64,000 nt of DNA, taken from the NCBI RefSeq assembly GCF_018380615.1, contig NZ_JAGYVZ010000017.1, positions 62,001 through 126,000 on the forward strand. Direction: 5' to 3'. How positions within the stretch are numbered: the stretch's first letter is position 1; each line of letters begins with the position of its first letter. Origin of the DNA: Flavobacterium psychroterrae. Its GTDB lineage: Bacteria; Bacteroidota; Bacteroidia; Flavobacteriales; Flavobacteriaceae. Position numbers and translations under genes: made by a program. The notes beneath the pieces were generated by a model, which searched no databases, was not told the DNA's origin, and saw only the letters and a program-made list of their open reading frames with translations. Positions 13,247-27,721 of this stretch are shown piece after piece.

Positions 13247-13627
13247 ATGATAGATGAAATTACAAGATACTCTGACGCTGATTTGGCAGAGTTTAAAGAA
13301 ATAATCCAAAATAAAATACAAAAAGCACAAGCTGATCTGGATTTAATAAAAAGTGCTTACATGAATGATTTGAATAACGGAACAGATGATACATCTCCAA
13401 CTTTTAAAGCATTTGAAGAAGGAAGCGAAACAATGTCAAAAGAAGCAAATTCACAGTTAGCTATCAGACAGGAAAAGTTTATACGCGACCTGAAAAACGC
13501 ATTATTCCGTGTTGAAAATAAAACATACGGTATTTGTAAAGTAACAGGAAAGTTAATTGGCAAAGAAAGGCTAAAAATCGTTCCTCACGCTACAATGAGT
13601 ATCGAAGCAAAGAACTTGCAACGATAA
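13247..13627 (+). CDS. TraR/DksA-family protein lacking most zinc cysteines
   Basis: 126 residues. The order is an N-terminal helical coiled-coil part (DADLAEFKEIIQNKIQKAQ, then KANSQLAIRQEKFIRDLKNAL) and a C-terminal zinc-finger-like end (TYGICKVTGKLIGKERL ... PHATMSIEAKN). DksA-family proteins enter the RNA polymerase secondary channel and modulate transcription with ppGpp. The usual CxxC...CxxC finger is reduced here to a single Cys (GIC), a form I associate with Bacteroidota members. The fold is probably kept without zinc. It lies 10 bp downstream of ileS and is followed by a terminator. In many Bacteroidota the gene sits between ileS and lspA. Confidence 0.88.
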   Translation: MIDEITRYSDADLAEFKEIIQNKIQKAQADLDLIKSAYMNDLNNGTDDTSPTFKAFEEGSETMSKEANSQLAIRQEKFIRDLKNALFRVENKTYGICKVTGKLIGKERLKIVPHATMSIEAKNLQR

Positions 13628-13645
13628 TCAATATTAAATAAATAA

Positions 13646-13670
13646 GCGCTCCTTTTAGGGGCGTTTTTTT
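13646..13670 (+). terminator. Terminator after the dksA-like gene
   Basis: CGCTCC (13647-13652) pairs with GGGGCG (13658-13663) across TTTTA, with one G-T pair, and is followed by seven T. Confidence 0.8.
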
Positions 13671-13816
13671 GTTTAATGTTTTGTTGAAATGAAGCTTAAA
13701 AGGATTGTAAAGCTTTTGAAAGAATTTAATTGCAAGTAATAAAGAGAATCTTGAATTTGAACTCTGTATTTTGTAAGAAGAGAAAAGTCTTCGATTTGGC
13801 GCAGTGAAAAAATAAT

Positions 13817-13858
13817 TTTTATTAGAACTATCTTCAATCAAGATAGTTCTAATAAAAA
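13817..13858. terminator. Strong hairpin downstream of the first roadblock-like pair
   Basis: A 16-bp perfect stem (13819-13834 with 13840-13855) and a 5-nt loop, flanked by T-rich sequence on one side and A-rich on the other. It lies directly beyond the minus-strand roadblock genes and could also stop plus-strand read-through from the dksA-like gene. Confidence 0.65.
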
Positions 13859-13872
13859 AATAAGATAAATAA

Positions 13873-14253
13873 CTAAGCTAAGTTTTTCTCTAATTCTAAT
13901 TTGTGTTTTCTTAAAACAGCTCTTGTCATTCCTAGATTTGCCTTACTGGCATCTGCAGCAAGATAAATCATAAATTTTTTGTTTGGAGATATATCGATAA
14001 TATGAATTTGATTAGTAAGGGTAATCAAAATATCTTCAATATCTTGTTTTAAATTTAAAGCTTTTACTGCGTTTAACTTTGCTTTAACAACCTCAAGATT
14101 GTAAGCTGCAGCAAGTTCCGGATCAAACGAAGGGTCTACTGTTAGGTTTCCAAAACTTAATCCTGATTCAATTTCGGTTACGGCAACTGCAATAAAGCCA
14201 TTTACGTTGGTTTTTATTTCATTTAAAAACACGTTTAAAAAGTCATTACTCAT
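13873..14253 (-). CDS. Roadblock/LC7-like protein B1
   Basis: 126 residues with no signal peptide. The pattern matches roadblock/LC7 (MglB-like) folds: a beta-strand FIAVAVTEIESG, a helix DPELAAAYNLEVVKAKLNAVKAL, strands DILITLTNQIHIIDI and MIYLAADA, and a final helix ANLGMTRAVLRKH. Such proteins dimerise and often regulate small Ras-like GTPases or work as scaffolds. No GTPase gene lies nearby. It is about 65% identical by hand alignment to the protein at 26495-26869. It forms an operon with the upstream roadblock-like gene (35 bp gap). The pair interrupts the ileS-dksA-lspA cluster. Function unknown; fold assignment is by pattern and is moderately sure. Confidence 0.75.
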   Translation of the reverse strand: MSNDFLNVFLNEIKTNVNGFIAVAVTEIESGLSFGNLTVDPSFDPELAAAYNLEVVKAKLNAVKALNLKQDIEDILITLTNQIHIIDISPNKKFMIYLAADASKANLGMTRAVLRKHKLELEKNLA

Positions 14254-14288
14254 AATTTAGGTGGGTTTGTTGGGTTAATAGATCTATG

Positions 14289-14645
14289 TTATTTTAATAG
14301 GGAATTCTTACTTAATTCTAACGCAACTTCATCTGTTGATCGCATTAATAAACCGAGATTACTCCCGTCTTTTGAAAAAGCAATTATAAAATTCGTGCCG
14401 CTTATTTTATTTCCTATAAAAACACCTTCTGATGTTTTTAAAAAAAGCTGTTTCAGGGCGCCTTTATCAAGATCGATTAAAAGTTTTTCGCTCATTGATA
14501 AAATTGCTGCACTCATTGCGGCAACACTATCTGCGTAATCAATATTCAGGGAAGTGATTAATTTTCCTTTTCCATTTAAAATTAAAGCAGCCGAAGATTT
14601 AGTATTAACCAGGAAATCGTTTAGAGTAGTTGTAATTTCATTCAT
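14289..14645 (-). CDS. Roadblock/LC7-like protein A1
   Basis: 118 residues from the ATG at 14645. The frame is also open to an ATG at 14678, but its paralogue at 26155 begins at the position equivalent to 14645. It has a strand-helix-strand pattern like roadblock/LC7: SSAALILNGKGKLITSLNID, the helix SVAAMSAAILSMSEKLLID, then LKQLFLKTSEGVFIG and NFIIAFSKDGSNLGLLMR. It shares this pattern, and motifs such as VAAM, LKQ and LGLLMR, with the first gene of the second pair. First gene of a two-gene minus-strand operon, so A1 and B1 may form a heterodimer. No export signal, hence cytoplasmic. Function unknown. Confidence 0.7.
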   Translation of the reverse strand: MNEITTTLNDFLVNTKSSAALILNGKGKLITSLNIDYADSVAAMSAAILSMSEKLLIDLDKGALKQLFLKTSEGVFIGNKISGTNFIIAFSKDGSNLGLLMRSTDEVALELSKNSLLK

Positions 14646-14744
14646 ATTTGTAAGATTTGGTAAAGTTGTTAAATTCACTAGGTTTTATTAGGGCATTGGG
14701 CTAAATATGAGTTTTTGTTCTAAACAAGTGTTAATTTTTATTAA

Positions 14745-14752
14745 CAAATATA
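14745..14752 (-). promoter_or_regulatory. -7 box upstream of the first roadblock-like pair
   Basis: On the minus strand this reads TATATTTG, an exact -7 match, 99 nt before the ATG at 14645. The long leader and missing -33 element make it tentative. Confidence 0.35.
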
Positions 14753-14823
14753 AATTAAATTCTGTATCATTGTAATACCAAATCATTAATTATTTTATTT
14801 ATTTAACGTAAAAAACTTACATA

Positions 14824-15039
14824 ATGGCTAAAGTATTGAAATTCAAAGATGTAAACTCTGATGTAGAAAGCAGAATGAAGGATTTTGAAAAAATTCGTAT
14901 TAAGCTTAAAGCCGATGTAAAAAAGGCTGAAGCAAAAAAAGCAGCTTCCGGAAAAGAAGGAAAAGGTTTGCTGAAATCTATTTCTGAATTTTTTAGTGAT
15001 ACACCCAAGACAACGACTCAGCAAAATGTAAAAAAATAG
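14824..15039 (+). CDS. Small lysine-rich protein
   Basis: 71 residues with about one Lys in four. The N-terminal half is helical (DVESRMKDFEKIRIKLKADV). An Ala/Lys/Gly-rich linker follows (KKAEAKKAASGKEGKG), then a hydrophobic patch (LLKSISEFFS) and a Thr/Gln-rich tail. There is no signal peptide. I do not recognise a family. The high charge would fit a nucleic-acid-binding or ribosome-associated role, but this is only inference. It is transcribed away from the roadblock-like pair, so the two may share a regulatory region. It has its own terminator before lspA. Confidence 0.65.
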   Translation: MAKVLKFKDVNSDVESRMKDFEKIRIKLKADVKKAEAKKAASGKEGKGLLKSISEFFSDTPKTTTQQNVKK

Positions 15040-15095
15040 ATCTTGCGATATTAAAAAGTAATTTTAATTGCTTAGATATATATTATAAAAGAATT

Positions 15096-15121
15096 AACGC
15101 TCCAATTGGGGCGTTTTTTTT
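15096..15121 (+). terminator. Terminator after the small lysine-rich gene
   Basis: AACGCTCC (15096-15103) pairs with GGGGCGTT (15108-15115) around AATT, followed by a T-tract. The core stem is nearly the same as that after the dksA-like gene. Confidence 0.85.
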
Positions 15122-15132
15122 GATTAAATTGT

Positions 15133-15140
15133 TACTTTTG
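15133..15140 (+). promoter_or_regulatory. -7 promoter box for lspA
   Basis: TACTTTTG is an exact TAnnTTTG match, 19 nt before the lspA ATG at 15160. A TTTG at 15119-15122 is too close for a -33 element. Confidence 0.6.
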
Positions 15141-15159
15141 CGCATCAAAATTTAATAAA

Positions 15160-15765
15160 ATGTCATTACGAAAAGCGTATTTCCTTATATTTTTAGTTTT
15201 AATTGTTGACCAGCTTTCAAAAATCTATGTAAAAACAAATTTTGTTTTAGGCGAAGAAGTAAAGGTGATGGGCGCTGATTGGTTCAGAATTCATTTTATT
15301 GAAAATGAAGGAATGGCTTGGGGAACAAAAATACCTGGACAATATGGGAAATTGATTCTGACGGTTTTTAGAATTTTCGCAGTATTCGGGATTGCCTATT
15401 GGTTATCTGATTCAATTAAAAAGCGCCATTCGACTTATTTGATAGTTTCAATTGCTTTAATTTTTGCAGGAGCAGCAGGAAATATCATCGATTCAGTCTT
15501 TTACGGAGTTATTTTTGATGACAGTCATGGTAATCTTGCAATACTTTTTTCACCTGAACCTTACGGAACATGGTTTCATGGTTTAGTGGTAGATATGTTC
15601 TATTTTCCTATCTGGAGAGGAACTTTGCCAACTTGGTTTCCTGTTTGGGGCGGAGAAGAAGTTTCTTTTTTTAATGCTATTTTTAACGTTGCCGATATGG
15701 CAATTTCTACAGGAGTTGGTATTTTGTTATTCTTTAATAAAAGAGCTTTTCCTAAAACAGCATAA
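15160..15765 (+). CDS. lspA: Lipoprotein signal peptidase (signal peptidase II)
   Basis: 201 residues. It cleaves signal peptides of diacylated prolipoproteins in the inner membrane, and SusD and other lipoproteins of this genome depend on it. Four membrane helices are visible. Family motifs are DQLSK near the start, NEGMAWG, GNIID (residues 107-111), and the catalytic aspartates in VVDMF (D145) and FNVADMAI (D179). About 30 residues lie between GNIID and VVDMF, longer than the roughly 10 of E. coli LspA; this long periplasmic loop is, as far as I know, usual in Bacteroidota. It has its own -7 box, so it is separable from the ileS-dksA transcript. Confidence 0.96.
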   Translation: MSLRKAYFLIFLVLIVDQLSKIYVKTNFVLGEEVKVMGADWFRIHFIENEGMAWGTKIPGQYGKLILTVFRIFAVFGIAYWLSDSIKKRHSTYLIVSIALIFAGAAGNIIDSVFYGVIFDDSHGNLAILFSPEPYGTWFHGLVVDMFYFPIWRGTLPTWFPVWGGEEVSFFNAIFNVADMAISTGVGILLFFNKRAFPKTA

Positions 15766-15787
15766 TTATTTAAAATAAAAGATAAAT

Positions 15788-15847
15788 AAATTCCAAATTC
15801 CAATATTTGAAGCATTCATTGCCTGCAAGTATTGGAATTTGGAATTT
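15788..15847 (+). terminator. Long inverted repeat after lspA
   Basis: Perfect 18-bp arms at 15788-15805 and 15830-15847 separated by 24 nt, starting 22 bp after the lspA stop. Only a short T-run (TTTT) falls at its end, so termination is likely but not certain. Confidence 0.5.
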
Positions 15848-15878
15848 TACATTATTGGGATTTGATCTTTTATTGTGC

Positions 15879-15886
15879 TATTTTTG
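15879..15886 (+). promoter_or_regulatory. -7 promoter box for addA
   Basis: TATTTTTG is an exact -7 match with TTG at 15855-15857 (21-nt spacing), ending 18 nt before the ATG at 15905. It rules against a start at 15875. Confidence 0.6.
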
Positions 15887-15904
15887 CTTTATAAAACTGA
15901 ACTT

Positions 15905-18900
15905 ATGCAAAGTCCGTCTTTTTCTATTTATGATGCATCAGCAGGTTCAGGAAAGACCTATACGTTAGTTAAGGAATATCTCAAAATTATTCTTTCCTCT
16001 CCTAAAAATGATGCTTACCGAAATATTCTCGCAATAACTTTTACCAACAAAGCAGTTCACGAAATGAAAAGCCGTATTGTTGGGAGTTTGTCTGAGTTTA
16101 CAAAAGAGCAGCCGTCAGCAAAAGCGTTAGATTTAATGGAGGATTTATCTCGTGCCACGGGACTTTCTATTATTAAAATCAAAACAAAATCCCAGAATAT
16201 AATCAAGCATCTTATTCATAATTATGCTGCTTTTGATATTTCTACAATTGATAAATTTACCCATAAAGTAATTCGTGCTTTTGCGCATGACTTGAATTTA
16301 CCAATGACTTTTGAAGTCACTTTAGATACTGAGAATTTACTGATAGAAGCCGTTGATGCCATTATTGCTCAGGCAGGACAGGATGAAACTTTGACAAAAT
16401 TACTGATCGATTTTACAATGGAAAAAACCGACGATGATAAAAGTTGGGACGTTTCGCGTGAAATTCTGGAGACAGGACGATTAGTTTTAAATGAAAATAA
16501 CAGAAATGAGATTTCGCATTTTCAGGACACTTCGATCGAAGAATTCGTAATAATAAAAAAGAAAATGCAGGCTCTTTGTAAAGAGTTAGAATCTGAAAAT
16601 GAAAATTTTGCAGTTGAAGCTCTTGCTTTAATCGATAAAAACGGAATTGATTTAAAATCATTTTCCCGCGGAACTTTTCCGAATCACTTAGAAAGTATTC
16701 GTGATGGAAAATTTAATCCACGAAATAAAACTTTTCATGAATTCGATGATATTGCCATTAATAAAACGGCAAAAGACAAAGCGTTAATAGAAAATGTTAT
16801 TCCGGAACTGCTTCAGATTTTAGAGAAGATTTATAAGAATTTCGAAAAAAGAGATTTTTATAAAGCATTTCTAAAAAATATAACGCCGCTTTCGCTTTTA
16901 AACACTGTGAGTAACGAATTGGCGAAAATACAATCAGAACAAAATATTTTGTCAATTTCTGAATTTAACGCTATCATTCATCGCGAAATTCAAAACCAGC
17001 CCGCGCCTTTTATTTATGAACGTCTGGGAGAAAAATATCGCCATTTTTTTATTGATGAATTTCAGGATACTTCAGAGATGCAATGGCAAAATTTGATTCC
17101 GTTAATCCATAATTCACTTTCCGGTCAGGATGATTTTGGTAATAAAGGAACTTTGATGATTGTAGGCGATCCAAAACAATCCATTTATCGATGGAGAGGA
17201 GGAAAAGCAGAGCAATTTATTGAATTAGGAAAGGAAGGAACTTCTTTTTTTAATCATGAAAAGAAAGTCGAGCATTTAGATACCAATTATCGAAGTTATA
17301 GCGAAGTAATTGATTTTAATAACGCTTTTTTTAGTTTGATTTCTGCAGAGTTTTCAAATGAAGATTATAAAGATTTATATGAAAATCATAGTTTTCAGAA
17401 TTCAAATTCAAAAAAAGGAGGTTATGTCAATATTTCTTTTCTTCCGATAATAGAAAAAAATGATTTTGCAGATGAAGAAGAAGTTGTAGAAAAATCAGAT
17501 TTGTATGTTCTGGCAACTTTAAATGCGATTCAGAAAGTGGTTCGCGAAGGTTTTTTATATAAAGATATTGTAATTCTGACCCGTAAAAGAGATCAGGGAA
17601 TTGCAATTGCAAATTATTTAACCGAGCAGAATATTCCGCTTTTGTCTTCCGAAACCCTGATGATTCAAAATGCTACGGAAGTTCGGTTGATTGTTCATTT
17701 ATTGAAATATTTAAACAATAGTGCCGATTTAGAATCGAAAGCGAATTTCCTCCACTTTTTGGCTTCAGGTAAAGATATTCAAATGCCAATTCATGATTTT
17801 ATTGCTGCAGGAATGGCGAAAAGGGTTGAAGCTGATTTTGAAAAATGGCTATTGACTTTTGATGTTTCACTGTCTTTTGAAAATATTCGGAAAAAATCAC
17901 TTTACGAAGCAGTCGAGATTATCATTTCAAAATTCGTAATGATTTCAGAAGGAAATGCGTATGTGCAGTTTTTTCTTGATATCGTTTTAGAGCGGGATAT
18001 TAGAAATCAGGCTGGAATTGCAGATTTTTTAAGTTACTGGGATAAAAACGGAGAGAAATTTAGTATTCCGTCGCCGGAAGGAAATAATGCCGTGCGAATT
18101 ATGACGATTCATAAGTCGAAAGGATTAGAGTTTCCTGTTGTTATTATGCCTTTTGCAGAAGAAGATTATAATCGAAAACCAAAAGATAAATTATGGCTCG
18201 ATACAGAAGATAGTGATTTAGGTGTTCCAAAAGCCTTAATTGATAATAGTAGCGCGGTTGAAGGTTTTGGTGAAAGTGCTTCGGCAGTTTTTAATTTAAA
18301 AAAACAAGAAGAATTACTGGATAATATTAATGTTTTGTATGTGGCGCTAACTCGTGCTGAAGAACAGTTATATGTTATTTCGCAATCTTTAAAAGAAAGA
18401 AAAGACGGTGAATTTCCGAATAATATGGCTTCTTTTTTTATTAAATATTTAATGAATAAAGGAGTTTATGATCCTGAAAAATTAGAATATGAATTTGGAA
18501 ACAAAACCAGACTTTCGGAGTTTGTAGATTCTTTTGATTTAGTGAAAACGATACCGGTTGTTTCAGAAGTTTTGAATCCGAAAAATATCCGAATTGCACA
18601 ACGTGAATCTTTGATGTGGGGAACGCATCAGCAGGAAGCAATATCGTATGGAAATATAATTCATGAGATTTTAGCGTTCGTTAAAGGTAAATCAGATATT
18701 AATTTGGCTGTTACCAAAGCGCTTGAAAATGGATTGATTACAATCGATCAGACAGAATTAGTTTTAAAAACTCTTGGTGAAATTGTAAATCATCCTGAAT
18801 TAAGTATTTGTTTTGATGGTAATTATACTGTTTTAAATGAGCAAACAATAGTTCAGAAAGAAGGCCGGATTTTAAAACCTGACCGAATTGTTTTGACTCA

Positions 18901-19063
18901 AAATAAGGAAGCTTATCTTTTGGATTATAAAACCGGGATGATAAATTCAAAATATGCACAACAAATTCAAGAATACCAAGATGCTATTGAAGATTTAGGA
19001 TACAAAGTGTTAAAAAAGGCTTTGGTGTATATAGGAACAGAAATCGATGTAGTAAATTTGTGA
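15905..19063 (+). CDS. addA: AddA/RecB-like UvrD-family helicase-nuclease
   Basis: 1052 residues. It is the helicase-nuclease subunit for processing double-strand DNA ends before RecA loading. Superfamily 1A motifs in order: Walker A ASAGSGKT (residues 11-18), NILAITFTNKAVHEMK, the DExx box FIDEFQDTSEMQW, VGDPKQSIYRWRGG, DTNYRS, MTIHKSKGLEFPVV, and VALTRAEEQLYV. The C-terminal PD-(D/E)XK nuclease is shown by GNIIHEIL and LLDYKTGM. This is the AddA arrangement. Its presumed partner addB lies about 2.9 kb downstream on the same strand, but kbl and ompA are interposed. The start at 15905 is supported by a -7 box. Confidence 0.9.
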   Translation: MQSPSFSIYDASAGSGKTYTLVKEYLKIILSSPKNDAYRNILAITFTNKAVHEMKSRIVGSLSEFTKEQPSAKALDLMEDLSRATGLSIIKIKTKSQNIIKHLIHNYAAFDISTIDKFTHKVIRAFAHDLNLPMTFEVTLDTENLLIEAVDAIIAQAGQDETLTKLLIDFTMEKTDDDKSWDVSREILETGRLVLNENNRNEISHFQDTSIEEFVIIKKKMQALCKELESENENFAVEALALIDKNGIDLKSFSRGTFPNHLESIRDGKFNPRNKTFHEFDDIAINKTAKDKALIENVIPELLQILEKIYKNFEKRDFYKAFLKNITPLSLLNTVSNELAKIQSEQNILSISEFNAIIHREIQNQPAPFIYERLGEKYRHFFIDEFQDTSEMQWQNLIPLIHNSLSGQDDFGNKGTLMIVGDPKQSIYRWRGGKAEQFIELGKEGTSFFNHEKKVEHLDTNYRSYSEVIDFNNAFFSLISAEFSNEDYKDLYENHSFQNSNSKKGGYVNISFLPIIEKNDFADEEEVVEKSDLYVLATLNAIQKVVREGFLYKDIVILTRKRDQGIAIANYLTEQNIPLLSSETLMIQNATEVRLIVHLLKYLNNSADLESKANFLHFLASGKDIQMPIHDFIAAGMAKRVEADFEKWLLTFDVSLSFENIRKKSLYEAVEIIISKFVMISEGNAYVQFFLDIVLERDIRNQAGIADFLSYWDKNGEKFSIPSPEGNNAVRIMTIHKSKGLEFPVVIMPFAEEDYNRKPKDKLWLDTEDSDLGVPKALIDNSSAVEGFGESASAVFNLKKQEELLDNINVLYVALTRAEEQLYVISQSLKERKDGEFPNNMASFFIKYLMNKGVYDPEKLEYEFGNKTRLSEFVDSFDLVKTIPVVSEVLNPKNIRIAQRESLMWGTHQQEAISYGNIIHEILAFVKGKSDINLAVTKALENGLITIDQTELVLKTLGEIVNHPELSICFDGNYTVLNEQTIVQKEGRILKPDRIVLTQNKEAYLLDYKTGMINSKYAQQIQEYQDAIEDLGYKVLKKALVYIGTEIDVVNL

Positions 19064-19144
19064 AGAAATTAATCAGATGTTAAAGGATAGTTGACGTCTT
19101 AACAGGTGTAAGTTGTTAATTTTTAACGTTTTAAATAAATAGAA

Positions 19145-20338
19145 ATGTACGGTAAAATTAAAGAGCATTTGCAAAGTGAGTTGCAAACTATTGAAGAGAA
19201 CGGAATTTTTAAAAAGGAACGAATTATAACTTCGGCACAAGATGCTGAAATTACTATTTCGACAGGTGAAAAGGTTTTAAATTTTTGTGCAAACAATTAT
19301 TTGGGGCTTTCATCACATCCTGAAGTAGTACAAGCTGCTAAAGACGCTATGGATACTCATGGTTTCGGAATGTCATCAGTGCGTTTTATTTGCGGAACTC
19401 AGGATATTCATAAAACTTTAGAGAAAAAAATCGCTGAATTTTATGGTACCGAGGATACAATTCTTTATGCAGCAGCTTTTGATGCAAACGGAGGAGTTTT
19501 TGAGCCATTGTTAGGTGAAAATGATGCAATTATTTCTGATAGTTTAAATCATGCTTCTATTATTGATGGTGTACGTTTGTGTAAAGCAGCACGTTACCGT
19601 TATGAAAACAGTAATATGGAAGATTTAGAACAGCAGCTAATTAAAGCTAATGAAGCAGGAGCGCGTTTTAAAATAATTGTTACTGATGGTGTATTTTCTA
19701 TGGATGGTGTTGTGGCGCCATTAGATAAAATTTGTGATCTGGCTGATAAATATGATGCAATGGTTATGGTTGATGAATGTCATGCTGCGGGATTCATTGG
19801 TGCAACAGGCAAAGGTACGCTTGAAGCAAAAGGTGTAATGGGCAGAGTTGATATCATTACAGGTACTCTTGGTAAAGCTCTTGGTGGAGCAATGGGAGGT
19901 TATACAACAGCAAAAAAAGAAATAATTGAATTGCTTCGTCAGCGTTCAAGACCCTATTTGTTTTCAAATTCTTTGGCGCCGGCAATTGTGGGAGCTTCTA
20001 TAAAAGTGTTTGAATTATTAGAAAAAGACACTTCTTTAAGAGATAAATTAGAATGGAATACAAATTATTTCAAGGACGGAATGAAAAAAGCCGGTTTTGA
20101 TATAATTGAAGGGGATTCTGCAATTGTGCCAGTAATGTTATATGATGCAAAATTATCTCAAAAAATGGCTGATGAGCTTTTAAAACTAGGGATTTATGTA
20201 ATCGGATTCTTCTTTCCTGTAGTTCCTAAAGATAAGGCAAGGATTAGAGTTCAGCTGTCAGCTGCACATACCAAAGACCACTTAGACAGGGCAATAGAGG
20301 CATTTAAAGTTGTCGGACATTTGTTAAAAGTTATATAA
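19145..20338 (+). CDS. kbl: Glycine C-acetyltransferase (2-amino-3-ketobutyrate CoA ligase)
   Basis: 397 residues, an alpha-oxoamine synthase of fold type I PLP enzymes. It splits 2-amino-3-ketobutyrate with CoA into glycine and acetyl-CoA, the second step of threonine breakdown. Motifs: [16 protein letters not shown], the substrate and PLP region [23 protein letters not shown] with the PLP-binding Asp, and the PLP-lysine segment [14 protein letters not shown]. The length is that of Kbl. Threonine dehydrogenase is not adjacent. It is 81 bp downstream of addA with no clear terminator between. Confidence 0.95.
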
Positions 20339-20382
20339 TTCCCATTTGCTGGAATTTTTGTAGGTTTTTTTTAACATTTCAT

Positions 20383-20413
20383 TTTGTATTTAAAAATTTT
20401 GGTGTTACTTTTG
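20383..20413 (+). promoter_or_regulatory. Complete promoter of the OmpA-family gene
   Basis: TTTG (20383-20386), 19 nt, then TACTTTTG (20406-20413). This is the full Bacteroidota -33/-7 promoter with ideal spacing, 37 nt before the ATG. It is the best promoter seen in the window and fits an abundant outer-membrane protein. Confidence 0.8.
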
Positions 20414-20450
20414 TCTGTAATTAACTAAATTGTAATTAAAAAAATTAAGT

Positions 20451-21914
20451 ATGAAACATCTTAACAAACTTTTAGTTGCTGTGATGATGGTGATGGGTTT
20501 AAGTTCTCACGCACAAGACAGTAACAATCCATGGGCTATCTCTTTTGGAGTTAATGCCGTTGACACTAGAACCAGTTCTGGTGCAGGAAGTGGTTTCTTT
20601 GATCAACACTTTTCTCAGCCATTCGCTGTAAAAGACAACTGGAATATTCTTCCTTCTTTATCTTACATTGGTGTGTCTAGATATGTAGGTAGTGGTTTCT
20701 CTGTTGGTTTACAAGGATCTGTAAACAAAATTGATAAATATGTTACTTTCAATCCAAATGCTGCAGGGCATGATTCAAGAGGTAACGTTGTAACTAATCC
20801 TGGTGATTTGATGTATTATGGAATTGATGCTACTATTAAATATAGCTTCCAGGAATTAATCAAATCTAAAGTAGTTGATCCTTCGTTATCTGTTGGTGGA
20901 GGTTACACTTTCTTTGGTGATAGCAGCTACGGAACAGTTAATCCAGGTGCTGGAGTAACTTTCTGGTTTACAGATGCTATTGGTCTTGAGCTTGCTTCAA
21001 GATACAAATGGTCAGTTAGTGGTGATAGACAAGATGCTTCTGGAGCTCCAGATGCTCCATCTCACTTTCAACACACTGCAGGTCTAGTTTTCAAATTCGG
21101 AGGTAAAGATACTGACGGAGACGGAATCTACGATAAAGATGATGCTTGTCCAGATGTTGCTGGTCTAAAACAATTCAACGGATGTCCTGATACTGATGGA
21201 GACGGAATCGTTGACGCTAGTGATGCTTGTCCAGATGTATTTGGTTTAGCTGCATTAAACGGATGTCCTGATACTGACGGAGACGGAATTGCTGATAAAG
21301 ATGATGCTTGTCCAGATGTTGCTGGTTTAGCTGCTTTAAAAGGTTGTCCTGATACTGACGGAGATGGTGTTGCTGATAAAGATGACAAATGTCCTACAGT
21401 TGCTGGTCCTAAAGAAAATGGTGGTTGTCCTTTCTTAGACGCTGATAAAGATGGTGTTCTTGACAAAGATGATGATTGTCCTACAGTTGCAGGTCCTGCT
21501 AGTAATAGAGGTTGTCCTGAAGTAACTGCTGAAGCGTTAGAAGATCTTAAAGTTCAAGCTAGAGCGGTATACTTTAACTCAGGTAAAGCTACTTTCAAAA
21601 CTGGAGACAAAGAAACTTTAGCTAGATTAGATGCAATCAAACAAATCCTTATCAACTATCCTAATGCTAAATTTAGCGTTGAAGGACATACTGATAGCGA
21701 TGGTTCTGATAAATTGAATCAAAAACTTTCTGAAGACAGAGCTGCTGCAGTTATGAACGCCTTGATCGAAAGAGGAGTTAACGTTGATAACTTACAATCT
21801 AAAGGTTTTGGTGAGTCTCAACCAGTTGCAAGCAATAAAACTGCTGCAGGTAAAGCACAAAACAGAAGAACTGAAATCAAACATATTGGTTCTAAATACC
21901 AAGGTAAACTATAA
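20451..21914 (+). CDS. OmpA-family outer membrane protein with thrombospondin type 3 repeats
   Basis: 487 residues. Signal peptide (MKHLNKLLVAVMMVMGLSSHAQ), then an N-terminal beta-barrel of about 180 residues. Next come five Asp-rich calcium-binding thrombospondin type 3 repeats (DTDGDGIYDKDDACP and variants, each ending in a GCP turn, bases about 21112-21520). The C-terminal OmpA peptidoglycan-binding domain follows (VYFNSGKATF, FSVEGHTDSDGSDKLN, LSEDRAAAVM, NRRTEIK). It anchors the outer membrane to peptidoglycan and is typically among the most abundant Flavobacterium membrane proteins. Codon use looks strongly biased, as in highly expressed genes, and its promoter is near-consensus. It sits between kbl and addB and ends at a terminator. 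Confidence 0.95.
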   Translation: MKHLNKLLVAVMMVMGLSSHAQDSNNPWAISFGVNAVDTRTSSGAGSGFFDQHFSQPFAVKDNWNILPSLSYIGVSRYVGSGFSVGLQGSVNKIDKYVTFNPNAAGHDSRGNVVTNPGDLMYYGIDATIKYSFQELIKSKVVDPSLSVGGGYTFFGDSSYGTVNPGAGVTFWFTDAIGLELASRYKWSVSGDRQDASGAPDAPSHFQHTAGLVFKFGGKDTDGDGIYDKDDACPDVAGLKQFNGCPDTDGDGIVDASDACPDVFGLAALNGCPDTDGDGIADKDDACPDVAGLAALKGCPDTDGDGVADKDDKCPTVAGPKENGGCPFLDADKDGVLDKDDDCPTVAGPASNRGCPEVTAEALEDLKVQARAVYFNSGKATFKTGDKETLARLDAIKQILINYPNAKFSVEGHTDSDGSDKLNQKLSEDRAAAVMNALIERGVNVDNLQSKGFGESQPVASNKTAAGKAQNRRTEIKHIGSKYQGKL

Positions 21915-21937
21915 TTTACCTTCGTAAATAAATGATA

Positions 21938-21967
21938 AAAGCCATTCTTAATTGAATGGCTTTTTTT
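21938..21967 (+). terminator. Terminator after ompA-like gene
   Basis: AAAGCCATTC (21938-21947) pairs with GAATGGCTTT (21954-21963), followed by T. It ends only about 12 bp before the addB ATG, so addB transcription must start very near or read through. Confidence 0.8.
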
Positions 21968-21978
21968 ATTTTTATAAA

Positions 21979-24744
21979 ATGATAAATACTTCTTTTCTTG
22001 GTAAAATAGCATCCGTTATAATTCAGGATTATTCGGCGAAAATTGCTGAAACAACAATTATTTTGCCCAATAAAAGAGCTAAGGTTTTTTTAATCGAAGC
22101 TTTGAAAAATGAAACTAAAAATACAATTCTTTCTCCCGAAATTATTAGTATTGAAGACTTTGTGCAAGATGTTGCTTCAATACGATCTGTAGATGCAATC
22201 GAACTTTTGTTTGAGTTTTATGAAGTTTATCTTTCTGTCACTGATAAGCAAAATCAGCAATCATTTGAATTATTTGCAAATTGGGCAAAAACACTTTTAC
22301 AGGATTTTAACGAAATAGATCGTTACCTTTTAGATCCAAGTCATGTTTTGTCATATTTAAAAGACATTGAAGACATTAAAAAATGGGGAATAGAAGTTGA
22401 AAATAGTACCAAGCTATTAGAAAACTACATTGATTTCTGGAAATTGCTACCAATGTATTACGATGCATTGTACAATCATTTACTGAATAAATCGATAGGA
22501 TATCAAGGTTTAATTTATAGGGAAGCAGTAAATAACCTGAATCACTTTTCAAATACTATTTCAAACCGAACTTTTATTTTTGCAGGTTTCAATGCATTAA
22601 ATGCTGCAGAAGAAAAAATAGTACAACATCTTTTGGCACTGGATCAGGCTAAAATTTATTGGGATGTTGATCAAACATTTTTAAATGATCCATATCATGA
22701 TGCCGGACTTTTTGTGAGATGCTTTAAAGAAAGCTGGAAACATTACAAAACAAATATTTTTGAATGGATTGTAGATGATTTTTCTCAATCTAAAAATATT
22801 CAGGTAATAGGAACTCCTAAAACTATTGGGCAGGCGAAATTAGCAGGAAGTATTATTGAAAATATAATCAACGAAAATCCAATGACTTCTCTGGATAAAG
22901 TCGCTATTGTATTGGGTGAGGAAAATTTACTGATGCCAATTTTATATTCACTGCCTTCATCAGTAGGGAGTTTGAATATTACCATGGGATATTCCGGAAA
23001 AAATAACCCATCTCAAATATTAATAGCAAAACTATTTAAAATGCATACAAATGCGCTTTCCAGAAAAGGCGATAGCTATGTGTTTTATTATAAAGATGTA
23101 CTTGATATTTTAACCCATCCATTAGTGGAGCCTTATGCAAATGCAGGTAATTTAGTAAGGATTATAAAAGAGAATAATTATACTTTTATTACACATAATA
23201 GAGTTGTTGAACTAAATTCCAGTCCAACACGATTGTTTGAATTATTGTTTCAAAAATGGGAAAGTGGATCAATTGCTGTTCTTGAAAATGTATCGGCACT
23301 TTTGCTTTTGATAAAAGAGAATTTCAGTAATGATAACGCAGAAGAAAAGATTGCGAAAGCTTTTGTATTTGCAGTTTTTAAAGTGATTAATAAGCTGATA
23401 AATTATTATTCGCAACATCATCATATAGATAATATCGACACTTTACATGCTATTTATAAGCAGATTATTGATGTAGCCGAAGTTTCGTTTGAAGGAGAAC
23501 CTTTGCATGGACTTCAAATTATGGGTGTTCTTGAAAGTCGTGTTCTGGATTTTGATACTGTAATTGTAACTTCTATGAACGAAGGAAAATTTCCTGCCGG
23601 AAAATCTCAAAACTCCTTTATTCCTTATGATGTTAAAAATGAATTAGGTCTGCCTACTTTTAAAGAAAAAGATGCTATTTATACCTATCATTTTTATCAT
23701 TTACTACAACGTGCAAAAAATATTTATCTAATTTATAATACTGAAAATGATGGATTAGATGCCGGCGAAAGAAGTAGATTTATAACACAATTAGAAGTTG
23801 AGAAACAACACAAGCATAATCTGACTTTTGATATTTATAATCCTGTTTTGCCAACTATGGCATATATACCAATGACGGTTCCAAAATCTGAAGCTGTGAT
23901 GGAACGTTTAAAAGAAATCGCAATTGCAGGTTTTTCACCTTCGGCATTGACGAGTTATATTCGGAATCCGATTCAGTTTTATTTCCAAAAAATTCTACGT
24001 ATTCGGGAAGTTGATGAAGTCGAAGAGAATATTGCGTTAAATACTTTGGGAACTATTATTCACGAAACTTTAAAAGCATTGTATGATCCTTTTGTGGGTA
24101 GATTTATATCCCAAACTGACCTTGAAAATTGTTTTAAGCTCTTAGATGAAGAAGTTTTAAAACAATTCAAAATGATTTATAAAGAAGGTGAAATTAAAAA
24201 GGGTCGTAATCTTTTGGCATTCGAAGTGGCAAAACGTAATGTTTCTAATTTCTTAAAAATGGAATCAGAATCTATTAAAAGCGGAGATGCAATTAAAATT
24301 ATTGCTTTAGAAAAAACTTACGAGCGTGAATTGCATCATCCAAAGTTGCCATTTCCGGTTTTAATTAAAGGAAATGTCGATAGAATTGAACAACGTAATG
24401 GAAAAATAAGAATCATCGATTATAAGACGGGAAAAGTTGAAAAAACGAATATTATCCTTAAGTCCTGGAACGGATTAACACAAGAGCTTAAAAACGATAA
24501 AATTATTCAGGTTTTGGCTTATGCTTTTATGTTTGAAAAAGAAGCAGGAGATTTGCCAATTGAAGTTGGGATTATTTCGTTTAAGAACCTGAAGTCCGGC
24601 TTTCTTCCTTTTGGATTTAAAGAAGAAAAAGAATTGGATTATACCGTTACAAAAGAAATTCTGAACAATTATACAGAAGAAATCGTAATATTACTATCAG
24701 AAATTTTTGATGCTACTATTCCTTTCGAGGAAAAAATAAATTAA
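21979..24744 (+). CDS. addB: AddB-like PD-(D/E)XK nuclease, AddA partner
   Basis: 921 residues. It is the inactive-helicase/nuclease subunit that pairs with AddA in end resection and recombination. An early segment TTIILPNKRAKVF occupies the Walker A-like position but lacks a GKT. Mid-protein hallmarks are LHGLQIMGVLESRVLDFDTVIVTSMNEGKFP. The C-terminal nuclease has FSPSALTSYIRNPIQFYFQ, GTIIHETLKALYD and IRIIDYKTGKVEK. B. subtilis AddB carries a four-Cys iron-sulfur cluster around its nuclease (usual text CPFxFF), but here the first Cys is Asn (RNPIQF), so no cluster is expected. The ATG at 21979 is preferred to 21952, which lies within the preceding terminator. Confidence 0.85.
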   Translation: MINTSFLGKIASVIIQDYSAKIAETTIILPNKRAKVFLIEALKNETKNTILSPEIISIEDFVQDVASIRSVDAIELLFEFYEVYLSVTDKQNQQSFELFANWAKTLLQDFNEIDRYLLDPSHVLSYLKDIEDIKKWGIEVENSTKLLENYIDFWKLLPMYYDALYNHLLNKSIGYQGLIYREAVNNLNHFSNTISNRTFIFAGFNALNAAEEKIVQHLLALDQAKIYWDVDQTFLNDPYHDAGLFVRCFKESWKHYKTNIFEWIVDDFSQSKNIQVIGTPKTIGQAKLAGSIIENIINENPMTSLDKVAIVLGEENLLMPILYSLPSSVGSLNITMGYSGKNNPSQILIAKLFKMHTNALSRKGDSYVFYYKDVLDILTHPLVEPYANAGNLVRIIKENNYTFITHNRVVELNSSPTRLFELLFQKWESGSIAVLENVSALLLLIKENFSNDNAEEKIAKAFVFAVFKVINKLINYYSQHHHIDNIDTLHAIYKQIIDVAEVSFEGEPLHGLQIMGVLESRVLDFDTVIVTSMNEGKFPAGKSQNSFIPYDVKNELGLPTFKEKDAIYTYHFYHLLQRAKNIYLIYNTENDGLDAGERSRFITQLEVEKQHKHNLTFDIYNPVLPTMAYIPMTVPKSEAVMERLKEIAIAGFSPSALTSYIRNPIQFYFQKILRIREVDEVEENIALNTLGTIIHETLKALYDPFVGRFISQTDLENCFKLLDEEVLKQFKMIYKEGEIKKGRNLLAFEVAKRNVSNFLKMESESIKSGDAIKIIALEKTYERELHHPKLPFPVLIKGNVDRIEQRNGKIRIIDYKTGKVEKTNIILKSWNGLTQELKNDKIIQVLAYAFMFEKEAGDLPIEVGIISFKNLKSGFLPFGFKEEKELDYTVTKEILNNYTEEIVILLSEIFDATIPFEEKIN

Positions 24745-24747
24745 GAG

Positions 24748-25041
24748 ATTAGAAAACTACAAAACATATTCGAATTTTTTAAAACCACTTTAGTTATCAA
24801 CTTAACTGTTTGTGCTATTGCTGTTTTGTTGGGAGGTTTTGATTACTTTTTCATTCTGTTTTTAAGTTTTGGTTTTTTAATGAGCATAGGTTTTAAAGAA
24901 TTATATCGTAAAAACGAATATCTGTTTTATGCAAATAATGGAATTTCGAAAATACAACTTTTGGTTTTTAGCTATTTTTTTACTTTTGGAGTGGCAATTT
25001 TAATAGGTTGTATCACTTTTTTAATAAAGAAGATATTTTGA
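24748..25041 (+). CDS. Small membrane protein, partner of the following ABC ATPase
   Basis: Up to 97 residues with two to three hydrophobic segments: TTLVINLTVCAIAVLLGG running into FDYFFILFLSFGFLMSIGF, a polar loop ELYRKNEYLFYANNGISK, and LLVFSYFFTFGVAILIGC. No ATG exists in the frame before the conserved-looking N-terminus. The open frame begins just after the addB stop (24742-24744). The first plausible codon is ATT at 24748; a TTG at 24826 would cut through the first membrane helix. The end overlaps the start of the ABC ATPase by four bases (TTGA), which indicates translational coupling. It is probably the membrane part of a small transporter. No family recognised; start uncertain. Confidence 0.55.
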   Translation: MRKLQNIFEFFKTTLVINLTVCAIAVLLGGFDYFFILFLSFGFLMSIGFKELYRKNEYLFYANNGISKIQLLVFSYFFTFGVAILIGCITFLIKKIF

Positions 25042-25712
25042 AAAAAAACATTTTAGAAGTGGATGGAATCCAAAAAAAATATGGTGAAAGAGTAATTCTT
25101 TCAGATGTTTATCTGAAATGTGAAACTTCGGATATTATTGGTTTGTTAGGAAGAAATGGTTCTGGAAAATCGACTTTGCTAAAAATAATCTTCGGAGTAA
25201 TATCAGCTCCAAATAAATGTATTCGGATAGATTCTGTTTCAAAAAACAACCAAAATGTTCTATTGAACGATATTAGTTACTTGTCGCAGGAACAATTCAT
25301 TCCGAATCATTTGTCTGTAAAAAAGGCAGTGATATTATCAGTCGATAAACAAAAAATAAAATTTTTCTATGAAGATGAGTTTATTCAGTCGATTTTGTTT
25401 AAACGAATAAATCATTTATCAGGTGGAGAGTTGCGATATCTTGAAATTAAAATTGTTCTATTTAATGCTTCAAAATTTGTTTTGCTAGACGAACCTTATA
25501 ACGGATTGTCGCCAATAATGGTAGATATAGTCAATGAATTGATAAAAACCAATTCGTACAAAAAGGGAATTGTCATTACAGATCACAATTATCAAAATGT
25601 AATTAAGATTTCGACTCAATTGATTTTGATCAAAGATGGTAAAACCCATTATATCAAAGAAAAAGCTGAACTTGTTGATAAAGGATATCTAACCAGTTCA
25701 GCTTTTTTATAG
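25038..25712 (+). CDS. ABC transporter ATP-binding protein
   Basis: 224 residues from TTG 25038. It is an ATPase subunit that drives transport when paired with a membrane protein. Walker A GRNGSGKST (residues 38-46), Q-loop YLSQEQF, signature LSGGE, Walker B FVLLDEP and H-loop ITDH are all present, so it should be active. The protein is short, with no extra domain. The start codon TTG overlaps the TGA stop of the preceding small membrane protein gene (TTGA, 25038-25041), so the two are translationally coupled. A frame extension to 25008 lies inside the upstream gene. The substrate cannot be told. Confidence 0.85.
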   Translation: MKKNILEVDGIQKKYGERVILSDVYLKCETSDIIGLLGRNGSGKSTLLKIIFGVISAPNKCIRIDSVSKNNQNVLLNDISYLSQEQFIPNHLSVKKAVILSVDKQKIKFFYEDEFIQSILFKRINHLSGGELRYLEIKIVLFNASKFVLLDEPYNGLSPIMVDIVNELIKTNSYKKGIVITDHNYQNVIKISTQLILIKDGKTHYIKEKAELVDKGYLTSSAFL

Positions 25713-25721
25713 CGATTTTTT

Positions 25722-25865
25722 CTAACTAAAGATTTTTTTGAAAAATCCTTTTTTTGCTTGTTCTTGTAAGTTAGAATTGTTTATGCTTCCGTTTTCAAAA
25801 CGAAACCTTCTAAATTTCATTAATTTCACATTTAAGTCAAAACGTACTTCGTCAACAGTTTTCAT
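25722..25865 (-). CDS. Small protein of 47 residues
   Basis: The frame is open further upstream to 25973, but an exact -7 box (TAACTTTG on the minus strand) sits 18 nt before the ATG at 25865, which supports this shorter form. The protein is basic, with a beta-like start (MKTVDEVRFDLNVKLMKFRRF), a polar middle and a lysine-aromatic end (KKGFFKKIF). No signal peptide or family recognised. It is convergent with the ABC ATPase gene, only 9 bp from its stop. Confidence 0.45.
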   Translation of the reverse strand: MKTVDEVRFDLNVKLMKFRRFRFENGSINNSNLQEQAKKGFFKKIFS

Positions 25866-25883
25866 ATCGTTCAATTTTTTTTG

Positions 25884-25891
25884 CAAAGTTA
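25884..25891 (-). promoter_or_regulatory. -7 promoter box for the 47-residue gene
   Basis: The minus strand reads TAACTTTG, an exact TAnnTTTG match, 18 nt before the ATG. Confidence 0.45.
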
Positions 25892-26117
25892 TGAAAAACT
25901 CCCAGTAAACATCGATAGTTACAAACGTTAAGATATTAATTAAGATATCCCAAACAGAATCCAAATTTTTCAAACAATTCCACTTTTTTTATTGTTCTTT
26001 TTTACAAATATTATTTAAAAAATAAAGAAACATTATAGGATAAATAAAAGTAATTCAAATGGTTACGGGCAACTCTTTTTTAACAAGTGTTTATCAGGCA
26101 ATACTATATTATTAAAA

Positions 26118-26125
26118 TATCTTTG
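26118..26125 (+). promoter_or_regulatory. -7 promoter box of the second roadblock-like pair
   Basis: TATCTTTG is an exact -7 match, 29 nt before the ATG at 26155. No matching -33 element was found. Confidence 0.55.
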
Positions 26126-26154
26126 AACCTTCTTAAAAATGAAATAATAGCAAT

Positions 26155-26475
26155 ATGATAGATTTGAATACACTTGTCGAAGAAACTGGAGCTGAATCTG
26201 GGTTAAGTTTTAACATAGATGGCATCTTGCTGGAATCGGTTAATTTAGAGTATGATGGAAACGTGGCTGCAATGATTGGGATGATATTAAAAATGTGTTT
26301 AGAGATGTCTGAAGACGTGAATAACGGAGATCTTAAACAAGTAATGATTAAAAATAAAGACGGTATTGTAGTCGCAAATAAAGACGAAGACGATAACTGT
26401 GTTGCACTGCTTTCTAAAGATATAAGCAAAATGGGACTTTTGCTACGCAAAATGGATACCGTTTTCAATAATTAA
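26155..26475 (+). CDS. Roadblock/LC7-like protein A2
   Basis: 106 residues, cytoplasmic. It is a paralogue of the protein encoded at 14289-14645, with the same strand-helix-strand layout: SGLSFNIDGILLESVNLEYD, helix NVAAMIGMILKMCLEMSEDV, strand LKQVMIKNKDGIVVAN, then CVALLSKDISKMGLLLRKMD. First gene of a two-gene unit; its partner follows after 19 bp. The gene order (A then B) is the same as in the first pair, though the first pair lies on the other strand. A terminator closes the unit. A role as a heterodimeric regulator or scaffold is inferred from the roadblock/LC7 pattern and is not shown. Confidence 0.72.
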   Translation: MIDLNTLVEETGAESGLSFNIDGILLESVNLEYDGNVAAMIGMILKMCLEMSEDVNNGDLKQVMIKNKDGIVVANKDEDDNCVALLSKDISKMGLLLRKMDTVFNN

Positions 26476-26494
26476 TTAAACTAAAATTTAAAAC

Positions 26495-26869
26495 ATGTCA
26501 GATTTTTTACAGAATTTTCAAAACGATTTAAAAGAAAATGTAAATGGATTTATTGCCGTTTCAGTAACCGAAGTTGAAACAGGAATGTCTTATTGCTCTC
26601 TTTCTCTAAATCCAGATTTTGACCCGGAATTAGCATCTGCTTATAATTTAGAAGTTGTAAAAGCAAAATTAAACGCTATTAAAGCTTTAGGATTAAATCA
26701 AAAAATCAATGATATTTTAATTACACTTACAGATCAAATACATATTATAGATGTATCTGAAGATGGTAAATATTTTATTTATTTAGCAGTTGATTCAACT
26801 AAAGCAAACCTTGGATTAACAAGAGCAACTTTAGCTAAATTCAAAAAAGACATTATTTCAAAACTATAA
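26495..26869 (+). CDS. Roadblock/LC7-like protein B2
   Basis: 124 residues. It matches B1 (13873-14253) at about 81 of 124 positions in a hand alignment. The most conserved blocks are NVNGFIAV, PELA followed by AYNLEVVKAKLNA, DILITLT, QIHIID and KANLG. These are the strand, dimer-helix and strand elements of a roadblock/LC7 fold. That the surface-like helix is conserved almost unchanged between the paralogues suggests a shared partner. There is no adjacent small GTPase. It lies 19 bp behind A2 and is followed by a strong terminator. Confidence 0.77.
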   Translation: MSDFLQNFQNDLKENVNGFIAVSVTEVETGMSYCSLSLNPDFDPELASAYNLEVVKAKLNAIKALGLNQKINDILITLTDQIHIIDVSEDGKYFIYLAVDSTKANLGLTRATLAKFKKDIISKL

Positions 26870-26885
26870 TTTTGCCCCAATAATG

Positions 26886-26925
26886 AAAAAAGGCCGTTTC
26901 AAAATTTTTTGAACGGCCTTTTTGC
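26886..26925. terminator. Bidirectional terminator after the second roadblock-like pair
   Basis: An AAGGCCGTT-type arm (from about 26889) pairs with AACGGCCTT (26912-26920), with an A-run before and a T-run after. It serves the plus-strand pair and the convergent hydrolase gene. Confidence 0.85.
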
Positions 26926-26944
26926 TTTTTATTTTAGAACTGAT

Positions 26945-27721
26945 TTATTCAAAAAAGTCTAATAAAACAGTTTTCAATTCTTCCTTGTTTTCAATCTGGC
27001 TCATGTGTCCGTCATCAAAAGAAACCAGTTTTACAGTTGTATTTTCTATTTGAGCAGTATTTTCGTCATAGTTTAAAACGGGATCTTTTTTGCCTAAAAC
27101 CAATAATACAGGAAACAAATCCTGTTTCAATAACGATTCTCTGTCTTTTCTAATCTTCATTCCTTCAAGCGAAGCTACAATTCCTTGCAAAGGAGTTTTT
27201 AAAGCCTGAATTTTCACCTTCTCGATTTCATCTTCTAGTCTTGTTCTGTTGTTTTCGCTGAATAAATTAGCAATTGCAAGGCTTACAAAGTTTACATAAT
27301 TTTGTTTTACTGCTTTTATGGCGCGATTTCGGTTTATTTTTTTATCGTGACTATCTGCTTTTGAGCTGGAATTTAATAAAACTAATTTATTAATTTTCTT
27401 TGGGAATAATTCGGCAAAAGCCAAACCAACATAACCTCCCATAGAATGCCCTAGAATAATCGCTTTTTCGATTTTTAAATGATCTAAAACCTCGTGAACA
27501 GCATTTGCATTATCCTCCATAGAATGCACATATCCCAAACAATCAGATTCACCATGACCCAATAAATCAATTGTGATAACGCGATAATTTTCAGAGAAAA
27601 GATCAACATATTCCTTCCACATTTTTTTATTTTCCAGAAAGCCGTGAAGTAATACAATCGCAGTTCCTTTACCTGAATCAGTAAAAGATATTTTAGTGTT
27701 TTTATATAGAATATTTTTCAA
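26945..27721 (-). CDS. Alpha/beta hydrolase
   Basis: 258 residues, no signal peptide. The alpha/beta-hydrolase fold is shown by the oxyanion region LLHGFLENKKMW, the nucleophile elbow GHSMGG (Ser 93), the acid in GKKDPV (Asp 213) and the His in DDGHMSQIE (His 239). The triad is complete. The closest named groups are the MenH-like and carboxylesterase-like small hydrolases, but the substrate cannot be told. It is monocistronic. A palindromic repeat region separates it from the upstream Xaa-Pro aminopeptidase gene on the same strand. Confidence 0.88.
   Translation of the reverse strand: MKNILYKNTKISFTDSGKGTAIVLLHGFLENKKMWKEYVDLFSENYRVITIDLLGHGESDCLGYVHSMEDNANAVHEVLDHLKIEKAIILGHSMGGYVGLAFAELFPKKINKLVLLNSSSKADSHDKKINRNRAIKAVKQNYVNFVSLAIANLFSENNRTRLEDEIEKVKIQALKTPLQGIVASLEGMKIRKDRESLLKQDLFPVLLVLGKKDPVLNYDENTAQIENTTVKLVSFDDGHMSQIENKEELKTVLLDFFE

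Follow-up and report, generated by a model that had tools for sequence, protein, structure and literature searches.

Paired roadblock/LC7 genes in Flavobacterium genomes with no detectable MglA-type GTPase

A stretch of 64,000 nucleotides from Flavobacterium psychroterrae (contig NZ_JAGYVZ010000017.1, positions 62,001 to 126,000; hereafter the window), part of a 5.7 Mb genome in 113 contigs, carries two related two-gene modules, A1-B1 and A2-B2, whose products are small proteins of the roadblock/LC7 type. Proteins of this type are known above all for partnering small GTPases, and we find no GTPase of the MglA type in this genome or in 29 other Flavobacterium genomes that carry a complete B gene. 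Our analysis indicates that A is related to the MglB-type roadblock proteins coupled to MglA-like GTPases and that B represents a roadblock family of its own, widely distributed and covered by no Pfam or NCBIfam model. We consider it an evenly balanced proposition that the two proteins make up a hetero-oligomeric roadblock scaffold, related to MglA-coupled MglB systems and working without a GTPase of the MglA type. In this proposal A and B would assemble together, as MglB with MglC or MP1 with p14, into a small scaffold that would dock another regulatory protein; the MglA-type GTPase would have been lost, or never acquired, in these genomes, and the A-B pair would have been retained, duplicated and kept under purifying selection, the hetero-oligomer, its scaffold function and the loss of the GTPase being the parts that we infer.

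Both modules read A then B, with intergenic gaps of 35 nt (A1-B1) and 19 nt (A2-B2) (Table 1). The original prediction, made from the letters of this DNA alone, had described these four open reading frames (ORFs), and their positions, strands and shared order all stand; its hand-aligned figure of about 65% identity between the B proteins becomes 67% over 116 residues (E 1e-58), and the A proteins are, as it had said, more diverged (37% over 100 residues, E 1e-19). Searches of the source genome revealed no copies beyond the two B genes and two matches to the Pfam model Robl_LC7.

A roadblock/LC7 fold for both A and B, which the prediction had also proposed, is supported by structure models, structural comparison and profile-profile alignment. 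AlphaFold2 models of A2 and B2 both follow the order H-EE-H-EEE-H (helix, two strands, helix, three strands, helix), which is the fold of the roadblock/LC7 superfamily. Foldseek ranks Asgard roadblock proteins, together with MglB, highest for the A2 model (E 3.8e-7 and weaker), and the best match of the B2 model in the Protein Data Bank (PDB) is Myxococcus xanthus MglB (E 2.5e-7, TM 0.80, 13% identity), with MglC and further roadblock chains ranking below it. VIA-align against roadblock chains yields Z up to 15.6 with rmsd 1.9 over 106 residues for A and Z up to 17.3 with rmsd 1.9 over 119 residues for B; the lower rows for the two models include Rag C-terminal domains and profilins. For B, 31 of the 33 non-redundant loci entered the structure alignments, the other two being truncated, and for A 28 of 35 loci did so, each with the two window proteins added and with some start codons set by hand.

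A profile search against roadblock/LC7 places A1 above the Robl_LC7 cut-off and A2 marginally, 0.8 bits short of it, and B is linked to the superfamily by profile-profile comparison only, as neither B1 nor B2 matches any Pfam or NCBIfam model, Robl_LC7 included. With hhalign, the B profile aligns to 20 roadblock proteins of distant loci with probability 95.6 (E 1.1e-8, 124 columns) and to a wider set of 102 roadblock proteins with probability 92.5 (E 5e-7, one shared sequence removed), and the controls (column-reversed roadblock, GTPase and X profiles, X being a protein of distant clusters described below) give probabilities of at most 0.5. A comparison with a wide roadblock set that had returned E 1.1e-12 was discarded because the set contained one B protein (L102), and the B profile searched against PDB sequences found a single unrelated match (E 0.65). 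Taken alone, the flavobacterial A alignment gives no significant hhalign match to B, which suggests that the two proteins parted long ago as separate branches of the roadblock superfamily and did not arise by recent duplication of one another; the flavobacterial A1 and A2 alignments show no significant hhalign match to each other either.

The two genes are closely linked across the family Flavobacteriaceae. A search of genome_contigs for B confirmed 228 stretches, and in the best 80, which were kept, A lies directly upstream of B in 76, with gaps of up to about 200 nt; these 80 loci come from Flavobacterium, Aestuariibaculum, Aquimarina, other Flavobacteriaceae, one [Flexibacter] and one metagenome-assembled Bacteroidia genome. 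The closest B2 matches listed there are from Flavobacterium species (F. aquidurense, 98% identity), in a listing that may omit the source genome's own record. In a sample of 150 genomes of the genus, B occurs in 32 (complete in 30) and A in 27, and a complete B stands immediately downstream of 48 of the 50 A genes, the exceptions being an A2 without B in G025 and, in G301, an A2 with an internal stop followed by a B2 fragment. The original prediction had made its case depend on A and B occurring together in other genomes, and they do so in several Flavobacteriaceae genera. Of the 27 pair-bearing genus genomes, 20, this one among them, have their two modules oppositely oriented and separated by 11.7-12.6 kb, and the six intervening genes that we compared are common to all of these. 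A is the only neighbour family found within 400 bp of B in more than two of the pair-bearing clades, and these clades sit in differing surroundings.

The B family has a wider range. In a sample of 296 genomes of the phylum, B is present in 19, made up of 12 of the 18 genomes of the same genus and 7 of the 278 others, and Flavobacterium genomes hold up to four B-type genes, as one or two A-B pairs together with lone copies. The family spans Bacteroidota, Actinomycetota, Deinococcota and Pseudomonadota, and 28 records place it on plasmids of Hymenobacter, Streptomyces, Deinococcus, Acinetobacter, Comamonas and others; in the 20 of these records that were listed, B is annotated as a hypothetical protein or not at all. 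One such plasmid, of Acinetobacter wuhouensis and typed as conjugative, carries in a row a roadblock gene, a gene for a 321-aa uncharacterised protein and B (L190, 47-1924). A distant member of the Bacteroidota (G166) has five B-type matches in two clusters (L127, 7260-8089; L128, 7310-9594), with similar ORFs of about 250 aa beside both. In viral_contigs, 19 pattern matches to B gave zero confirmed cases, and phages gave no match. We set aside a defence or phage origin, as PADLOC and PHROGs returned weak matches only, the best at 18 bits to phrog_19931, of unknown function, and the PADLOC models giving just weak partial CARF matches for B, at 12-14 bits.

Sequence divergence between species indicates that A1, B1, A2 and B2 are real genes under purifying selection wherever the ratio could be computed. 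Nei-Gojobori dN/dS is 0.037-0.094 for B2 (8 comparisons), 0.036-0.055 for B1 (5 comparisons), 0.072-0.085 for A1 (5 comparisons, two with a longer upstream frame) and 0.025-0.033 for A2 (3 comparisons, with 3 more that yielded no dS and hence no ratio), values that are rough because several dS exceed 1; the overall range of 0.025-0.094 marks the four ORFs as genes and not chance frames. In a set of 22 B proteins that spans several phyla and was reduced at 70% identity, we count 22 positions conserved in 75% or more of the sequences, among them A47, A49, N51, E53, K58 and A64 in the second helix, D73, I74 and I76 in the third strand, Q81 and H83 at the start of the fourth, and N105, L106 and R110 at the start of the last helix. 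The MglC dimer interface consists of the second helices and adjoining strands (PMC7949163), and by analogy the conserved face of B may serve assembly or the docking of a partner. In A, a position matched by sequence alignment only carries DG in A2 and KG in A1, with the glycine invariant in 30 A sequences; an aspartate-glycine pair is reported as a feature of MglBs coupled to MglA of groups 2-5 (PMC4316618).

No gene of the MglA type was found with these modules. The window holds no MglA-like gene at E <= 0.001, in agreement with the original prediction, and in the source genome all Ras, Arf and Roc matches and the single match of an MglA profile lie on other contigs; those of the Ras, Arf and Roc searches are in frames of at least 304 aa only, a leucine-rich-repeat (LRR)-Roc protein among them. 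We rest the statement for the genus on an MglA profile of 12 rows, to which five of six control genomes contributed, since a search with the single GTPase of one distant cluster (L129) misses some MglA types, that of G087 among them. The profile recovers 13 strong matches (E 1e-61 or better) in all six control genomes, four of which are proteins that the profile was not built from (one in G001, and a second copy each in G006, G087 and G272), and it finds no small MglA-type GTPase in any of the 30 genus genomes with a complete B, the source genome included. Each of the 30 has one or two weak matches, with E between 2e-5 and 9e-4; the frames concerned are 476-611 aa long, and we take them to be translation-type or other large GTPases. 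The sole genus match in a frame shorter than 476 aa covers 63 residues of a 226-aa frame in G025 (E 8.7e-4) and was not counted as MglA. Across the 296-genome sample, the single-protein search gave strong matches (E 1.2e-31 or better) in seven genomes, two of which also carry B (G005 and G280), weak matches in 15 more, and no match in any genus genome.

In these two deep-branching relatives the same families do adjoin a GTPase. The order in L126 (G280) is A, X, an MglA-like GTPase with a GTPGQ motif, and B; in L129 (G005) a receiver/B fusion comes first, A, X and a GTPase of the MglA-like kind follow, and a lone B lies upstream on the opposite strand. Being without a GTPase is thus a state of the genomes and not of the families. 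The fusion, at 9180-10001 of L129, joins a response-regulator receiver to a B-like roadblock domain. X, a protein of about 225-234 aa (225 aa in L126) encoded between A and the GTPase (L126, 2141-2818; L129, 10455-11156; L172, 6943-7647; L174, 7197-7901; L175, 7064-7768), has no Pfam match above cut-off, and the L126 and L129 copies have no NCBIfam match either. We dropped a PATAN-like identity for X, as only a Streptomyces neighbour of B gave a DUF4388 match, and that below threshold. Further clusters lack a nearby B and have the order A-X-GTPase (L172-L175) or A-GTPase (L176, L177). We used the flavobacterial A profile to score 26 roadblock-like frames from distant-cluster and plasmid regions, a set in which one frame is a B protein (L131) and one gene is represented twice, at different lengths (L154, L178). 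Six frames stand out at 41-50 bits, with the next best at 28; each of the six has an MglA-like GTPase with the GTPGQ motif nearby, and together they represent three lineages. That motif is described for MglA groups 2-5 (PMC4316618).

The close and fixed order, the near-dependence of A on B and the known roadblock pairs MglB-MglC and MP1-p14 lead us to favour the hetero-oligomeric scaffold. Several of our observations weigh against it. In the genus sample, 23 of 71 complete B copies stand without A, and loci of F. covae, F. davisii and F. columnare hold arrays of four B frames and no A. With the flavobacterial A profile, the A proteins of the two B-bearing clusters reach no more than 16 bits (L126) and 13 bits (L129), which speaks against a simple loss of the GTPase from an A-X-GTPase-B operon, and other GTPase-adjacent roadblock frames are also low (6-25 bits). 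Within the genus, A1 distances track an unrelated small neighbour gene (0.89) above B1 (0.75), A2 correlates with B2 (0.58) about as it does with B1 (0.57), and after correction for four other genes A1-B1 stands at 0.53 and A2-B2 at only 0.23, so that co-variation of A and B inside the genus is not specific to the cognate pair. A mirror-tree over 84 unique A-B pairs (the count of 160 B frames includes loci fetched repeatedly) gives r 0.93 with 0 of 2000 permutations, and we do not use it as a sign of binding because relatedness alone can produce such a value and the genus control is not pair-specific. Finally, a multi-domain NTPase could be the partner of A-B.

These observations bear on three other explanations. 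If A and B were independent roadblock homodimers that share a transcript, with B as the active component and A as an accessory found with some copies, then the lone B genes of the genus, the tandem arrays, the B genes on plasmids of other phyla and the unspecific co-variation would all find a place, and MglB and MglC are each reported to homodimerise (PMC7949163). We regard this as quite unlikely, given the complete B downstream of nearly every A and the nature of the two exceptions, in which B is missing or a fragment. There is somewhat more to be said for regulation by A and B of an unlinked NTPase other than MglA, be it a housekeeping TRAFAC GTPase, the LRR-Roc (Roco-like) protein of the source genome or a motor ATPase, an explanation that we hold to be improbable while allowing it real weight: roadblock proteins have been predicted to be NTPase regulators (PMC4316618), the source genome has an LRR-Roc frame of 1167 aa (G000:C48:194019-194258, L120), and in four loci of one clade (L066, L071, L072, L073) an Obg-type GTPase gene, its identity checked against Pfam for L066 only, lies 51-65 bp from A-B on the opposite strand. 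In L076 of the same clade, however, this gene is 1.3 kb away, and the neighbourhood is confined to that clade. We rejected Roco as the partner, as a COR-A domain is absent from the matches in 18 genus genomes of the phylum sample, the source genome included (the Roc domain having been searched in the source genome only).

That the modules are decaying remnants of a lost MglA system, with no present function, seems to us highly improbable. Decay is visible in places, in the damaged second module of G301, the A2 of G025 that lacks its B2 and a short B match in G326 (a B fragment in G340 lies at a contig end and is uninformative); against it stand the purifying selection described above, the retention of both modules around the same six genes in 20 genomes, and a B1 protein distance of 0.054 that is below that of the lspA-like neighbour (0.107), with A1 higher at 0.137. 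The scaffold that we favour has a broader, evolutionary form, which we offer tentatively and with more doubt than belief: the module would have outlived a Ras-like GTPase and would now be a GTPase-independent scaffold or adaptor in Bacteroidota, and B would be a new cross-phylum family that was formerly a third arm, at times fused to a receiver, of MglA-type systems.

Table 1. Genes and candidate termination signals of the two A-B modules, in window positions.
Feature	Position	Strand	Description	Evidence
A1	14289..14645	-	roadblock/LC7 protein, 118 aa, module 1 first gene	Pfam Robl_LC7 33.6 bits (cut-off 23)
B1	13873..14253	-	divergent roadblock/LC7 protein, 126 aa, module 1 second gene	67% identity to modelled B2
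A2	26155..26475	+	roadblock/LC7 protein, 106 aa, module 2 first gene	Robl_LC7 22.2 bits; model pLDDT 92.4
B2	26495..26869	+	divergent roadblock/LC7 protein, 124 aa, module 2 second gene	model pLDDT 93.3, MglB best PDB match
Terminator-like hairpin 3' of B1	13816..13858	-	19 pairs, 3 G-C only, then T-rich	consensus scan
Hairpin and T-rich stretch 3' of B2, probable terminator	26887..26923	+		RNA fold

Signals around the genes suggest that each A-B pair is probably one short transcript, as a hairpin follows B1 and a stable hairpin follows B2. The consensus terminator scan called 3 sites in the region, where shuffled sequence averaged 0.5; a site such as the B1 hairpin does not on its own indicate function. 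The scan called none behind B2, where the RNA fold of 26866-26935 reaches -19.6 kcal/mol (z -4.26, 0 of 200 shuffles as stable). The Bacteroidota-type -7 motif occurs once ahead of each module, at about 30 bp from A2 and about 100 bp from A1, and its frequency in the window is not above that in shuffles; Rfam gave no match over 13500-27200. The A1 start, MNEIT, is also the start of the orthologous frames in L096 and L110, and an alternative in-frame GTG lies at 14678. Neighbouring genes in the window are, as we take them to be from the appearance of their sequences, ileS-, lspA-, kbl-, addA/addB- and ompA-like.

Elsewhere, the A-B pairs of two clades (10 loci) have near them a gene that we read by eye as of the tRNA-dihydrouridine-synthase type, on the same strand and within 100 bp in at least six. 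Within 5 kb, one family is shared by 15 loci across three groups, L127 and L128 included, and a PAS/sensor-kinase family accompanies lone B genes in Flavobacterium (L080), another member of the Bacteroidota (L130) and a Hymenobacter plasmid (L188); we treat families at this distance as weak leads because such genes are common. In L080 (6001-6945), L135, L137, L138 and L140, the lone B gene has a short ORF behind it in the same orientation, all of one family, and the two that were scanned match the IS1595-type transposase zinc ribbon PF12760, above cut-off in L080 and below it in L135. The B arrays occupy 6001-9026 of L075 (one frame short), 6001-9264 of L083 and 6001-9105 of L079, and in L075 and L083 two ORFs of about 210-230 aa that resemble each other come after them, one being split in L075.

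The original prediction had suggested an undescribed regulatory or scaffold system, and this stands in part. We have not found the pairing or the B family described: in an open paper library, no title or abstract among the top-ranked results concerned roadblock pairs in Flavobacterium or other Bacteroidota, and papers retrieved with "roadblock" and "Flavobacterium johnsoniae" were, by title, on other matters only. Two things limit the suggestion: orphan MglBs are known, and in the two deep-branching relatives both families adjoin an MglA-like GTPase. B-bearing Flavobacterium without a detectable MglA-type GTPase provide a clean setting in which to study orphan roadblock function, and the role of orphan MglBs is itself a gap named in the literature (PMC4316618).

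Among known systems, MglB of Myxococcus and Thermus, the GAP of MglA, shares the roadblock fold, and the A2 and B2 models both match MglB structures well. Of 749 MglB homologues, 328 were orphans, with no neighbouring mglA, and none had been characterised by 2014 (PMC4316618); a later study ties one orphan mglB to colonisation of the gut in Snodgrassella (PMC11112851). A-B resembles these orphans in having no MglA-like GTPase gene coupled to it, and differs from MglB in being two unlike roadblock proteins in fixed order, in a genome where no MglA was found, with a B that matches no Pfam or NCBIfam model. In M. xanthus MglB, a C-terminal helix beyond the roadblock fold is the guanine nucleotide exchange factor (GEF) region (PMC11016934), whereas the A2 and B2 models stop at most 3 residues past the last roadblock helix and have no such extension. 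The MglB-MglC system of M. xanthus likewise consists of two different roadblock proteins, paralogues that bind each other, with an MglC homodimer between two MglB homodimers, and acts with MglA and RomRX (PMC7949163); MglC is among the Foldseek rows of B2, and a comparable binding of A to B would be an extrapolation from this likeness, in a window without a linked counterpart of MglA or RomRX.

The Ragulator/LAMTOR complex offers a parallel for a scaffold, in that MP1-p14 are roadblock heterodimers that serve as one (PMC5696360, PMC5680233), and p14/MP1 chains match both the A2 and the B2 models, at 10-19% identity and hence as a likeness of fold only; unlike the arrangement that we propose for A-B, Ragulator anchors Rag GTPases. 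The Streptomyces conservon, CvnA-D, counts a roadblock gene and a Ras-like GTPase among its parts, together with a gene of unknown function (PMC13343842), a trio that resembles the A-X-GTPase clusters of L126, L129 and L172-L175. The conservon comprises four linked genes, for a kinase, a roadblock protein, a protein of unknown function and a GTPase, whereas the modules of the window, by our reading of the surrounding ORFs by eye, stand with no kinase, X or GTPase beside them.

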